Positions 27,378-32,432 of a DNA stretch of 50,522 nt are shown here, piece by piece. The notes under the pieces were generated by a model. It saw only the letters and a program-made list of their open reading frames with translations. It was not told the DNA's origin and searched no databases. Origin of the DNA: Gammaproteobacteria bacterium (lineage in GTDB: Bacteria; Pseudomonadota; Gammaproteobacteria; SZUA-152); the NCBI GenBank assembly GCA_022627515.1, contig JAKEGK010000069.1:1-50522 (forward strand), given 5' to 3'. Positions within the stretch are counted from its first letter, which is position 1; every line of letters starts with the position of its first letter. A program made the position numbers and the translations under genes.

Positions 27378-28274
27378 TCACCATTCGCAGCAATAACCGG
27401 TTTCCTGTTGTTTTAAAAACTTTTCCGCTTCCGGTCCATGCAGAAGGGCGAGCGTTGAAAGGATGCCCGCTTCGGTGCAGGTGTTAGCAGTGACGGTGAC
27501 GGAGCGTGGCGCGCCGGTCACGGCCCAGCCGGTTTTCGGGTTCAGTATATGGCTGTAGCGAATCCCGTCCTTCACTAAATATCGTTTGGTATCGCCACTG
27601 GTTGCAACAGCGCCTTTTTTTAACCGGATGGCATGTCCCCTGTTGGATGGCTGCCGACCGGGATCGGGATTTTCAACGCCTATTATCCAGGGCGCGCCTG
27701 AGCGCCGCGGCCCGGTAACAGCAATATCACCACCAAAGTTGACCAGGCAAGCGGCGGGATTGACATCCCGCAATAATTTTACGCTGCGGTCTACCGCGTA
27801 TTCTTTCCCGATACCTCCCAGGTCAATCTCCATGCCGGGCCGCAAGGTTATGACAGGCCGTTGCCAATGCACTTTTTCCCAGCCAACATGCGTTAGCAAT
27901 GCGTCGATCTGTTGCTGGGATGGTATGTTGCTGCTGCCGTCAAAATGCCAGGCGTGGCGTAAAATACCGGATGTGATATCAAACAAGCCGTCACTGATTT
28001 CGTAACATTGGCCGGCGTAATCCAGCAAATCCGCGGTTTCCGCGTCCACTTCCACGGGATCGCCATTGGCATGGTTAATGGTGTGAATAATATTTTCGTG
28101 ACGGTAACGGGAAAATTTGTTTTCCACGCGCAGAGCTTCCTGTTGGGCAACCAGTCCGAGCCGCCGCGCAAGACGGATATCAAGGCTATCGATCAATACC
28201 TCACACGGACCGGCCATTGCCCGGAAGCGCGCGATGCAATAATCGAGGTGAGGAGTAACGGAAAGATCGGACAT
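27378..28274 (-). CDS. apbE: FAD:protein FMN transferase ApbE
   Basis: ApbE attaches FMN covalently to Ser/Thr of exported or membrane proteins using FAD. The 298-residue protein has the family features ENKFSRYRHENII, FDITSGILRHAWHF, EIDLGGIGKEYAVDR, LVNFGGDIAVTG, the substrate and metal region AVATSGDTKRY, and YSHILNPKTG. No clear lipoprotein signal is visible at this start; the first 20 residues are weakly hydrophobic, so where it acts is uncertain. Last gene of a leftward cluster after DUF4266 and DUF3570, with 87 bases before it. This arrangement suggests that one of these is its target. Confidence 0.92.
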   Translation of the reverse strand: MSDLSVTPHLDYCIARFRAMAGPCEVLIDSLDIRLARRLGLVAQQEALRVENKFSRYRHENIIHTINHANGDPVEVDAETADLLDYAGQCYEISDGLFDITSGILRHAWHFDGSSNIPSQQQIDALLTHVGWEKVHWQRPVITLRPGMEIDLGGIGKEYAVDRSVKLLRDVNPAACLVNFGGDIAVTGPRRSGAPWIIGVENPDPGRQPSNRGHAIRLKKGAVATSGDTKRYLVKDGIRYSHILNPKTGWAVTGAPRSVTVTANTCTEAGILSTLALLHGPEAEKFLKQQETGYCCEW

Positions 28275-28361: not shown

Positions 28362-29639
28362 TTAAAATTGGAAGCTGTAGCCTGCCTGCACGATGATGGC
28401 GTCGACGTCCGGGAACAATATCTGATCGTTGAGCGCGCCGAACTTCGCCGGTTCGTCGCCGGATTGTTTCATCACTTCAGCGCGAATGGTAAATTCCGAC
28501 TTTTGGCTGAATTCAATACCGTAGGCCAATCCCAGCGTGGTGGTAGTCATGTCACCCAGCCGGTAATCCGCACTGGCGGCCTGGGTGGTTCCCGCTTCAC
28601 TATCCAGCAAGTAGGGTTTGTAAAATTCCGCCTTGGACTGCACATAATAGCGCGCATGCGGTTGCAGATAATGTCCGCCACCCAATTCAAAGCGGTAGCG
28701 AAGGTCCACCGTGTGCGAATTGATGCCCCAGTCGTCCCAGAAGAAACGGTATGTCAGGTAAATAACATCTTCATTGAACTGGTGATTATATTTCGCGTAC
28801 ACAGACTGGCTTAGACGGTTATCCGGCCGGGCTTCGAACCGGTAAGGATCAGTAGCAATAATCTCACCGCTGTTGCTGTCAATGACGCTAAGAATTTTAT
28901 AAGGATCGGTCAGGTAACCGTTATTCGAGCCAATGGTGTAATTGAGTTGCAGTAGTGACTTGCGGCTCAGGACCTGGGTAATGCCGAACAAAAAGTCCAC
29001 CACGGTTTTGGTTTCGTTAGTATCGCTCACCTGCTTGGCGCCGCTGTCCGGCATGGGCGATAACTCTACCGGCGCACCACCCACCGGTGACACCAGGTCA
29101 TAACTCGCCGCAATGCCGGCGGTATAGGTCCGGTTTTTATCTTCCGTGTCTTTGGAGAAAGTCGCAGATCCGCCCAGCGAAGTGTAATCGAATTCGCGCG
29201 AGAAATAAGCGCCGTACACTCCGCGCAGGGTACGGTTAATAGGTTTCTCCCAGTCAACGCTGAGCGCACCGCGCGTGTCCTTGAAACTGGGGTCCAGCGG
29301 CGTTTCATCGGCAGACGTCGTATACGTGGAATCACCTGATGGTGTCGTAAAAGTTTGCGCAAAGGGCATTGGAACGGCGCCATTGGCCGAAGCTCCGGTC
29401 AGCACATCCACCACCAGGCGCAGGTTCAGGAATTCATTGGTATCCAGTTCCTTGCGGGCTTTTAACACGGGTTCGACCGCCGATACGCGCTGGTCTTCTG
29501 AATAGTAGAGTATGGCGCTATCAAATTCCCAGGGAGCTTCAGTGCCAAATGCCGCGACGTCGTTCGCGTGAGTGCCTAATAGTGTGCAGGTAGCGGTGGC
29601 CAGTGCGCCGCGAATGGATTGTCCTTTTTTTAGTTGCAT
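28362..29639 (-). CDS. DUF3570 outer-membrane-like protein
   Basis: DUF3570 proteins are predicted outer-membrane barrels of unknown function. The 425-residue protein has a weak signal peptide (cleavage near residue 30), many amphipathic strands, and ends QAGYSFQF with a terminal Phe. DVLTGAS at residues 78-84 fits the D-x-x-[ST]-G-A-[ST] pattern that ApbE flavinylates in NqrC and RnfG. The start overlaps the DUF4266 stop by 10 bases, so the two are translationally linked, and ApbE follows. I assign the family from the overall pattern and the gene context. Confidence 0.82.
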   Translation of the reverse strand: MQLKKGQSIRGALATATCTLLGTHANDVAAFGTEAPWEFDSAILYYSEDQRVSAVEPVLKARKELDTNEFLNLRLVVDVLTGASANGAVPMPFAQTFTTPSGDSTYTTSADETPLDPSFKDTRGALSVDWEKPINRTLRGVYGAYFSREFDYTSLGGSATFSKDTEDKNRTYTAGIAASYDLVSPVGGAPVELSPMPDSGAKQVSDTNETKTVVDFLFGITQVLSRKSLLQLNYTIGSNNGYLTDPYKILSVIDSNSGEIIATDPYRFEARPDNRLSQSVYAKYNHQFNEDVIYLTYRFFWDDWGINSHTVDLRYRFELGGGHYLQPHARYYVQSKAEFYKPYLLDSEAGTTQAASADYRLGDMTTTTLGLAYGIEFSQKSEFTIRAEVMKQSGDEPAKFGALNDQILFPDVDAIIVQAGYSFQF

Positions 29640-29857
29640 CCGCAGCCGCCTCCACCAATACCCGCGCCGCCGCTGGACGCTTCTTTACTGAAATAAATAT
29701 GCTCATCAAGATAAGCTTCCAGCGGATTCGCTGTCAGTTGCATTTTCTTTTGCGCCAGTAAGTCTTTTTCCCAGGGTTTTACCGGCTCGATAGAACAGCC
29801 AGTGCCGGTAATAGCGAACAGGGAGAATAATGAGATGAAAACAAAACGCTGCAGCAT
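29630..29857 (-). CDS. DUF4266 small lipoprotein with Gly/Cys tail
   Basis: The 75-residue precursor has a signal peptide and lipobox ITGTGC, so Cys21 should be the lipidated first residue of a 55-residue mature protein. VKPWEKDLLAQKKM and HIYFSKE are typical of DUF4266. The protein ends in SSGGAGIGGGGCGCN with two closely spaced cysteines. Its function is unknown. First gene of the DUF4266-DUF3570-apbE unit. A perfect inverted repeat lies 17 bases before its ATG. Confidence 0.85.
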   Translation of the reverse strand: MLQRFVFISLFSLFAITGTGCSIEPVKPWEKDLLAQKKMQLTANPLEAYLDEHIYFSKEASSGGAGIGGGGCGCN

Positions 29858-30330: not shown

Positions 30331-30993
30331 ATGCGGGTATTGTTAGTAGAAGATGATGAGCTGCTGGGCGACGGGTTGCGTGCTGGATTAAAACAGGCGG
30401 GTTACACCGTGGACTGGGTAACCGATGGTCAAAGTGCCGAGAGCGCAATTACCGATAATGAATTTGATCTGGTGGTGCTCGACATAAATTTGCCAAATAT
30501 TTCCGGGCTGGAGGTGTTGCGAAACGTCAGAAAACAGGGCCGCAGCCTTCCGGTGCTGATTTTGACGGCGCGGGACAGTATTCCGGACCGCGTCGAAGGG
30601 CTGGATAGCGGCGCGGATGACTACCTGGTAAAACCGGTGGATCTCGATGAACTGTGCGCCAGGCTCAGGGTATTACAACGGCGCGCGGCGGGTCGTTCCG
30701 ATCCGGTCATTCAGTATGGTGATATCGTGCTGGACCCTGCGGCGCACCGTGTGACAGTAAATAACAAGCCGGTCAGTTTGTCGATGCGGGAATTCGTGCT
30801 GCTGCAGCATCTGCTGGAAAACGTGGGGCGCGTAATTCCCCGGGCAAGACTGGAGCAAAAACTTTACGGCTGGCAGGGCGAAGTCGAAAGCAATTCACTG
30901 GAAGTTTTCATACATCATTTACGCAAAAAACTGGGATCTGATTTAATCCGCACCGTGCGCGGCGTGGGTTATATGATAGAGCAATTATCTTGA
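30331..30993 (+). CDS. OmpR-family response regulator, PmrA/QseB type
   Basis: DNA-binding response regulator of 220 residues. The receiver domain (1-115) has the acidic pocket EDDE near residue 7, the phospho-Asp in LVVLDINLPN, the Thr in LILTARD and the Lys in YLVKPVD. The C-terminal winged helix (about 125-218) contains SNSLEVFIHHLRKKLGSDLIRTVRGVGYMI, split here as SNSLEVFIHHLRKK and IRTVRGVGYMI, matching the PmrA/QseB subfamily. The stop overlaps the start of the kinase gene by 4 bases. It is divergent from the DUF4266 operon. Confidence 0.92.
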   Translation: MRVLLVEDDELLGDGLRAGLKQAGYTVDWVTDGQSAESAITDNEFDLVVLDINLPNISGLEVLRNVRKQGRSLPVLILTARDSIPDRVEGLDSGADDYLVKPVDLDELCARLRVLQRRAAGRSDPVIQYGDIVLDPAAHRVTVNNKPVSLSMREFVLLQHLLENVGRVIPRARLEQKLYGWQGEVESNSLEVFIHHLRKKLGSDLIRTVRGVGYMIEQLS

Positions 30994-32432
30994 CCGTTTC
31001 CATCCGCCGGCGGCTGCTCGCCAATCTTTTAGTAACTATTTTCTTCGTCAGTTTAATAACGCTTATATTAAGCTACAACGATGCGCGCCATGAAGTGCAG
31101 GAATTATTCGATGCCCAGCTGGCGCAATCAGGCAGGGTGCTGCAGGCGTTGTTGTTGCCCGAGTTGCTGGTTGGCCCCAGCTCCGGCCTGCAGGACTTGC
31201 TGGATCGTTTTACGCAGTTGCCGGACGATATCAGCAATCAATACCAGATTGAGGCTCATGCCCTGGGCCATGAATACGAACGCAAGCTAGCCTTCCAGGT
31301 GTGGGACAGCAATAAGAAACTTTTGCTCCGTTCCGCCACCGCCCCGGCCACTGCGTTATCAGCCGGGGCGCTGGATCCGGCAAACCGCGGATTCAGTGAT
31401 GAAGTGGTGGGCGCCTATGACTGGCGCGTGTTTTCCTTGTGGGATGAATCACAGCAACACCTGATTCAGGTGGCGGAACGTTATGACGTGCGCGATGAAC
31501 TCATTACCAAAATCAGCCGTCAATTGATTACACCGTCACTGATATCATTACCGTTCCTGGGTTTGATGATCTGGATTGGTATTGGCCGCGGCCTGCGCCT
31601 CATACAAAGAGTTGCGGAAGAAGTTACCCGCCGCGATCCCGGTTATCTGGAATCCATGGAAGTGGGCCCGGTGCCCTCAGAAATAAAACCGTTGGTCGGC
31701 AGCCTGAATCATCTCTTTGAACGGCTAAAAAAGGCGTTGGAAACGGAGCGACAGTTTACCGATGACGCGGCGCACGAATTGCGCACGCCCCTGGCCGCGC
31801 TGAAGACTCAGGCGCAGGTGTCATTGCGGGCCACTGACGACACTGAGCGTCGGCAGGCATTGCGACAGGTTGTCACAAGTGTTGACCGGGCAACTCACCT
31901 GGTGGATCAAATGCTGACTCTGGCGCGGCTGGATCCCGCCATTACTTCCCTGGTGCGGGAAAAAATCAATCTTCACGATCTGGCCGCGGACGCTGTCGCG
32001 CAGTTGGTTCCGGTGGCAATGCAGAAAAAAATCGAGATCGCCATTACCGGCGCTGAAGATACCGTGGTATTTGTCGAGCCCGTGAGTGTTTCGATATTGA
32101 TACGCAACCTCGCCGACAACGCTATTGGATACACGCCGCCGCAGGGGGAGGTCGTGGTGAATATCGAACAGCAGCCCGGTGGGCAGGTCATTCTGTCGGT
32201 AACCGATTCCGGGCCGGGGATTGAGCCGGCGTTACAGGGCCGGGTATTTGACCGTTTTTACCGGGTATCAGGAAATTCAACCCCGGGTTGCGGACTGGGT
32301 TTGTCGATCGTAAAGCGGGTGGCGGATCTTAATGGCTTGCGCGTTGACCTGAAAAACAGGGAGAACGGCAACGGTTTGATCGCCAGCGTTTATTTCGATA
32401 ACGGCGCCGCGCTCAATCATGGCGCATCCTGA
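30990..32432 (+). CDS. Sensor histidine kinase, QseC/PmrB-like
   Basis: Inner-membrane kinase of 480 residues and cognate partner of the preceding regulator. One membrane helix lies near 10-30, a periplasmic sensor of about 150 residues follows, and a second helix lies near 180-200. A HAMP-like linker, HisKA with phospho-His in DDAAHELRTPLAAL, and HATPase_c (NLADNAIGYTPP, DSGPGI, GLGLSIVKRV) come next. The start is a TTG overlapping the regulator stop as TTGA, consistent with coupled translation. The signal is unknown. It converges on the Omp85-like gene 24 bases away. Confidence 0.9.
   Translation: MTVSIRRRLLANLLVTIFFVSLITLILSYNDARHEVQELFDAQLAQSGRVLQALLLPELLVGPSSGLQDLLDRFTQLPDDISNQYQIEAHALGHEYERKLAFQVWDSNKKLLLRSATAPATALSAGALDPANRGFSDEVVGAYDWRVFSLWDESQQHLIQVAERYDVRDELITKISRQLITPSLISLPFLGLMIWIGIGRGLRLIQRVAEEVTRRDPGYLESMEVGPVPSEIKPLVGSLNHLFERLKKALETERQFTDDAAHELRTPLAALKTQAQVSLRATDDTERRQALRQVVTSVDRATHLVDQMLTLARLDPAITSLVREKINLHDLAADAVAQLVPVAMQKKIEIAITGAEDTVVFVEPVSVSILIRNLADNAIGYTPPQGEVVVNIEQQPGGQVILSVTDSGPGIEPALQGRVFDRFYRVSGNSTPGCGLGLSIVKRVADLNGLRVDLKNRENGNGLIASVYFDNGAALNHGAS

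Follow-up and report, generated by a model that had tools for sequence, protein, structure and literature searches.

A motif-bearing DUF3570 barrel protein and its signal-less ApbE partner: a candidate for flavinylation before export

How could an outer-membrane protein come to carry a covalent flavin, and in which compartment would the flavin be attached? The usual course is for an envelope protein to be exported first and to receive its flavin afterwards from ApbE, which acts on the outer face of the inner membrane. Both questions are raised by a three-gene operon in a gammaproteobacterial stretch of 50,522 nucleotides (the window), in which a DUF3570 protein lies beside apbE. A preliminary description had proposed that this protein carries an ApbE-type motif and might offer electrons a route across the outer membrane.

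The DUF3570 operon, its motif and its predicted barrel

The DUF3570 gene (28362..29639, minus strand) encodes a 425-amino-acid protein that matches PF12094 over its full length (residues 12-423; E 3.4e-125; 418.6 bits against a curated cut-off of 25), is modelled by AlphaFold2 as an outer-membrane barrel and is a predicted ApbE substrate. It occupies the middle of the order DUF4266-DUF3570-apbE. Directly upstream lies the gene for a small DUF4266 lipoprotein of 75 amino acids (29630..29857, minus strand; PF14086, E 3.6e-22), whose flexible Gly-rich tail, ending GGGGCGCN, carries its CxC within the final CGCN; because this gene overlaps the start of DUF3570 by 10 bases, the two are likely to be translationally coupled. 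The next gene downstream is apbE (27378..28274, minus strand), which encodes a 298-amino-acid ApbE FMN transferase (PF02424, E 1.8e-70; 237.9 bits against a cut-off of 25.6), bearing out the earlier claim of a shared operon. Neither DUF3570 nor DUF4266 has a model in NCBIfam, and ApbE matched just a general model there, scoring far below its cut-off. Starts of open reading frames (ORFs) were picked by inspection. The window operon lacks the TlpA-like thioredoxin gene that is present in most relatives, and contains no DsbD gene. The gene upstream of DUF4266 is divergent and encodes a response regulator; it is part of a QseBC/PmrAB-like pair of response regulator and sensor kinase (2CSK_N; window 30331-32432, plus strand) that lies ~470 bases from the operon and is a possible regulator of it.

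Residues 78-84 of the DUF3570 protein read DVLTGAS (29388..29408, minus strand), with Ser84 (codon TCG, 29388-29390, minus strand) in the position of the predicted acceptor; the motif is where the preliminary description had placed it, on a strand left unstated there. The pattern D-x-x-[ST]-G-A-[ST] and its tolerance have been reviewed (PMC12052999). Scanning the whole window for [DE]xx[ST]GA[ST] gave no match outside DUF3570 among ORFs of at least 80 amino acids, in keeping with the claim that no other protein of the operon carries such a motif. Since the motif arises in shuffled copies of the window protein with a probability of 0.006 (0.6%), one occurrence is weak evidence in a genome, and conservation is decisive. 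Across 37 one-site relatives (alignment A1), in which TGAS (81-84) of the window protein aligns with the motif of the others, D78 and G82 are invariant (37/37), residue 84 is always S/T (Ser in 23, Thr in 14), residue 81 is S/T in 36/37 and residue 83 is Ala in 31/37; the motif columns rank among the most conserved of the alignment. The preliminary description had called for a comparison of proteins with and without linked apbE, and an expected loss of the motif where apbE is not adjacent was ruled out: the strict form (D..[ST]GA[ST]) occurs in 18/23 proteins with a same-strand adjacent apbE and in 12/14 without one, the relaxed form (G plus S/T84) in 23/23 and 14/14, and the unlinked copies have an ApbE elsewhere in the genome. 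On this conservation, DVLTGAS is a genuine ApbE-type site, and we infer that Ser84 is flavinylated in the window species.

The adjoining residues P85, N86 and G87 are conserved too, and the invariant positions of the protein comprise E48, D78, G82, G87, S147, E149, D151, Y242, D245, P246, K248, E269, R271, P272, R298, R330, Q334 and A337. Residues 85-89 (ANGAV) were considered as a decayed second site and rejected, the true second site of the two-site clade lying ~20 residues on.

We placed the window protein among its relatives using 274 sampled gammaproteobacterial genomes, 71 of which contain DUF3570; loci with their neighbours came from these genomes (about 60) and later from a public genome collection (80). 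The window protein falls in the one-site type (the 37 sequences of A1), whose members mostly have, as it does, a single site. Proteins with two sites form a clade of their own (A2, most of L096-L175), in which ExMSGASPW precedes VMSGA[ST]I by ~20 residues, and the usual operon order in both types is TlpA-like thioredoxin, DUF4266, DUF3570, ApbE. A third type mostly reads DSISSASIDV, with Ser in place of the motif Gly, and usually has no matching ApbE; its loci (L082-L094, for example L085 at 4674-5936 on contig C66 of the window genome, G000) place it beside TlpA and DUF4266 and sometimes an exported ApbE, and it may represent a periplasmically modified or unmodified branch. Beyond the core genes, a tally of neighbours in the one-site clade gave no clear enrichment, so the substrate could not be inferred from it.

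Further copies and features stood out in this survey. The window genome carries a second DUF4266-DUF3570 pair (L045 on contig C117, 1208-2837; TGASPNGAT) with neither apbE nor a TlpA gene adjacent, and its DUF3570 probably depends on the window ApbE in trans. Another type (L086 at 17-943 on contig C104 of the same genome, L081 and L088) has a perfect DxVSGAT ~14 residues on, in a loop, and no linked apbE. Two DUF3570 frames (L036, 4866-7625; L044, 3927-6614) span ~900 residues rather than ~425 and contain insertions as well as additional SGAT motifs. The signal region of the one-site type (A1; window residues 1-25, 29565-29639) is conserved as MQLK...ALAxATCxLL, and the Cys inside its hydrophobic stretch is unusual for a signal peptide.

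The barrel proposed in the preliminary description finds support as a prediction. AlphaFold2, with the 37 sequences, returned 16 strands (pLDDT 89.3, pTM 0.83) in an even-numbered antiparallel barrel with a C-terminal aromatic residue, the chain ending QF with Phe last. Foldseek matched the model to the porin-like barrels OmpG, FadL and OccK (E about 1e-8, overall TM about 0.4), so DUF3570 is of the same general class, with no close relative of known function among the Foldseek results. The motif lies at the end of strand 3 (69-85), with D78, G82 and S84 on its lumen parity. Long loops follow odd-numbered strands (86-114, 184-208, 242-273, 335-363 and 395-411) and the turns after even-numbered strands are short; under the usual rules for outer-membrane barrels, this alternation and the terminal Phe place the motif on the extracellular side, and in the model Ser84 would stand at the extracellular mouth. 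Conserved positions are distributed accordingly unevenly: of the 45 most conserved, the half inferred to be extracellular holds 38 and the periplasmic half 3 (Fisher p 2e-5), and 17/17 checked conserved in-strand residues are on the less hydrophobic, lumen-facing parity, a result that is partly circular because conserved polar residues contribute to parity. Judged from this distribution, the invariant residues would mark out a site in the mouth, where FMN would sit.

Two earlier statements are modified by the model. Burial of residues 78-84 in the barrel wall had been named as grounds for rejecting the site; residues 78-83 do lie in upper strand 3, but Ser84 is at its lumen-facing end, so the objection applies to the first part of the motif and not to the acceptor. 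The suggested electron route across the outer membrane is unsupported as it was put, since one FMN at one end of the barrel cannot span the membrane and DUF3570 alone would therefore provide no such route.

An ApbE subfamily that tracks motif-bearing DUF3570

The linked ApbE has a well-defined model (pLDDT 94.5) whose best structural match is 1vrm from T. maritima (TM 0.85). The protein begins MSDLSVTPHLDYCIARFRAMAGPCE, 16 residues ahead of the conserved core; hydrophobicity and inspection, the basis of all our export-signal calls, revealed no signal peptide or lipobox, and its N-terminal residues are already strands of the modelled fold, which is folded from residue 5. By the same means, no export signal was seen in ApbE proteins linked to one-site or two-site DUF3570, and ApbE proteins adjoining SSAS-type DUF3570 carry signals. 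A hydrophobic N-terminal stretch is present in 1/93 ApbE proteins of the class with Gly270 (described below) versus 14/16 of the class with Asp at that position; the lone exception among the 93 may reflect upstream non-coding sequence. These features suggest that the linked ApbE stays in the cytosol.

In an alignment with FmnB and V. cholerae ApbE, the window enzyme retains the catalytic Ser and His (S226 and H242, matching Ser241 and His257 of V. cholerae) and the essential Lys (K157), all three invariant in its subfamily. Two other positions differ. Gly270 (codon 27465..27467, minus strand; TEAGILST) occupies the place of the Mg-binding Asp, which is Asp285 in V. cholerae (PMC12052999) and Asp301 in FmnB, where it ligates both Mg ions and its change to Ala greatly reduces or abolishes activity (PMC8906456). 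Glu158 (codon 27801..27803, minus strand; GGIGKEY) replaces a Gly of exported ApbE proteins. The subfamily thus has Lys-Glu-Tyr and Ala-Gly where Lys-Gly-Tyr and Ala-Asp are usual, with Gly270 throughout. The two exchanges are coupled: 110 aligned ApbE rows, a few genomes giving more than one, comprise 92 with Glu and Gly, 16 with Gly and Asp and 0 mixed, the remaining two being Lys with Gly (L062) and Leu with Asn (L188). As the Mg-ligand Asp is lost, activity would need a substitute ligand, for which we conjecture that Glu158 is the probable candidate. The case that the class is active rests on conservation and on the assumption that the characterized C. luteolum enzyme (ABB24423.1) belongs to it; our genome scan contained no Chlorobi ApbE/DUF3570 loci and returned only Gammaproteobacteria and Myxococcota/Deltaproteobacteria.

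Some ApbE is present in 196/274 sampled genomes, and a Pfam survey did not separate the subfamilies. A dedicated subfamily profile did: across the 274 genomes it gave 41 matches of at least 266 bits plus one broken copy (G033), while other full-length ApbE proteins scored at most 217 bits. The signal-less class and motif-bearing DUF3570 occur together in 39 genomes, the ApbE without the DUF3570 in 3 and the DUF3570 without the ApbE in 1 (Fisher 1e-42, with genomes that are non-independent and DUF3570 types assigned from score and alignment). The sole DUF3570-only genome (G052) has a damaged motif, TGPS. Two of the ApbE-only genomes (G056 and G193) retain a different DUF3570 without the motif; the third (G034) has no DUF3570 at all, and its signal-less-class ApbE (L178, 4473-5564) has damaged active-site motifs, FGSDI and ASSGL, which looks like decay following loss of the substrate. 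Class members encoded away from DUF3570 share the same substitutions and, except for L177, have no hydrophobic N-terminus. Because nearly every genome with an unlinked DUF3570 has a matching ApbE elsewhere, we expect such proteins to be served in trans.

The window genome encodes two ApbE proteins, the linked one and an exported-type enzyme on contig C63 with the usual residues (Lys-Gly and Ala-Asp) and a hydrophobic N-terminal segment, FLCLLLISC. It also encodes three FMN_bind proteins, which the C63 enzyme can serve.

Proposed pathway and competing explanations

Taking these observations together, we favour, with somewhat better than even confidence, an account in which the DUF4266-DUF3570-apbE operon makes an outer-membrane barrel whose unfolded precursor is flavinylated at Ser84 by a cytosolic ApbE before Sec export. 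The linked ApbE would transfer FMN from FAD to Ser84 of newly made DUF3570, which would then leave late through Sec under a weak signal sequence and be folded by BAM into its 16-strand barrel. The median signal hydrophobicity of motif-bearing DUF3570 is 1.67, as against 2.37 for the SSAS type, 2.40 for TlpA and 2.54 for DUF4266, and a weakly hydrophobic signal would favour late, post-translational export, leaving time for ApbE to act. The FMN would end up in the extracellular mouth, turned towards the lumen and surrounded by family-invariant residues, and would probably pass electrons to or from a substrate or acceptor on the cell surface. It would probably be re-reduced or re-oxidized from the periplasm by thiol partners, namely DUF4266 with its CxC and, in most relatives, the TlpA-like thioredoxin. 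Small lipoproteins plug other barrels, and the Gly-rich tail of DUF4266 might, as a conjecture, reach into this one from below. Modification in the cytosol before export would account for the missing ApbE signal and the tight pairing, and would show how FMN can reach a site that, once the barrel is assembled, is on the distal face of the outer membrane. This account is the simplest and agrees with the C. luteolum experiment as reported in the main text of PMC8238504. A broader claim, which we consider evenly poised, is that a separate signal-less ApbE class, in which a Glu at another point of the active site takes the place of the Mg-binding Asp, exclusively serves a single outer-membrane protein and would flavinylate it as a cytosolic precursor, so that a Sec substrate would cross with FMN attached and fold with the flavin in its extracellular mouth.

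Ser84 might instead receive its FMN in the periplasm, while the barrel is being assembled or earlier, whether from the exported C63 enzyme or from the linked ApbE travelling an unrecognised route. For the extracytosolic substrates that have been well studied, modification takes place outside the cytosol (PMC12052999), and the window genome possesses both an exported-type ApbE and FMN_bind substrates. Yet motif-bearing DUF3570 follows the signal-less subfamily rather than the ApbE found in 196/274 genomes, and 92/93 subfamily members have no hydrophobic stretch upstream of the core, so we regard periplasmic attachment as unlikely.

The altered metal site invites another suspicion, that the linked protein has lost its transferase function and instead serves DUF3570 as a chaperone or an FAD-binding regulator, given that Gly stands where mutation of the Asp in FmnB is so damaging. 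The invariance of K157, S226 and H242 and the retention of the substrate motif speak against this, and because the Glu next to the essential Lys is gained exactly where the Asp is lost, the change looks like compensation and not decay; we find a non-catalytic role quite improbable. The motif could also be a structural strand end and turn that is free of flavin in the one-site clade: part of its conservation may be structural, as P85, N86 and G87 are conserved as well, and Ser is used less well than Thr as an acceptor by some ApbE enzymes (PMC12052999). Position 84 nevertheless admits only Ser or Thr, as expected of an acceptor, the pairing with the partner ApbE across genomes is almost perfect, and the related two-site protein is reported to be flavinylated at such sites (PMC8238504). 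We give this explanation very little weight and retain flavinylation of the precursor in the cytosol as our preferred one.

Relation to known systems

Flavinylation of DUF3570 by ApbE is already known at the family level and is not new: the main text of Meheust et al. (eLife 2021; PMC8238504) reports DUF3570 as an ApbE substrate with two conserved [ST]GA[ST] motifs, and describes its association with DUF4266, thioredoxin and DsbD while leaving the function open. In that account, the C. luteolum DUF3570 was UV-fluorescent after co-expression with its linked ApbE and lost fluorescence only when both serines were mutated (Ser-to-Ala). The constructs were truncated, and the flavinylated protein was purified, denatured, from the pellet of lysed cells; the wording used for the ApbE construct is that used for a construct with its signal peptide removed (PMC8238504). 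Since truncated, pelleted DUF3570 was flavinylated, ApbE can, on the published description, modify the chain in the cytosol without a correctly assembled barrel. In our literature search DUF3570 and DUF4266 were named in no other paper, and the search turned up neither a precedent for Sec moving a chain that carries FMN nor a test of electron transfer by DUF3570.

What looks new is the dedicated ApbE without an export signal and with an altered metal site, although the missing signal may already be visible in the per-gene signal predictions of the supplementary tables of PMC8238504. If the subfamily is cytosolic, an outer-membrane protein would be exported with a bulky cofactor attached, making it a direct test of what Sec and BAM tolerate. 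A flavin in the barrel mouth would be a simple, heme-free surface redox site in many Gammaproteobacteria and Myxococcota. The two ApbE substitutions also give a quick sequence test for the signal-less class.

The closest known protein, the C. luteolum DUF3570, belongs to the same Pfam family, adjoins apbE and has an [ST]GA[ST] site, but it has a pair of sites, and mutating one was not enough, where the window protein has a single site; we found in the main text of that study no treatment of barrel topology or of whether the partner ApbE is exported (PMC8238504). With the DsbD/TlpA-like/DUF4266/DUF3570/ApbE clusters described there, the window shares a CxC-ended DUF4266, DUF3570 and ApbE, in order, yet its operon has neither the TlpA-like nor the DsbD gene and faces a divergent QseBC-like pair instead (PMC8238504). 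The cytosolic ApbE of Klebsiella pneumoniae, which modifies a soluble fumarate reductase, likewise has no signal peptide, but its substrate stays in the cytosol whereas the window substrate is an exported outer-membrane protein (PMC12052999). Compared with the exported ApbE/FmnB enzymes (V. cholerae 6nxi, L. monocytogenes 7esa) and T. maritima 1vrm, the window ApbE has the same fold and keeps the catalytic Ser and His; it differs from them in having no export signal, in having Gly in place of the Mg-ligand Asp and in having Glu in place of the Gly that follows the Lys.
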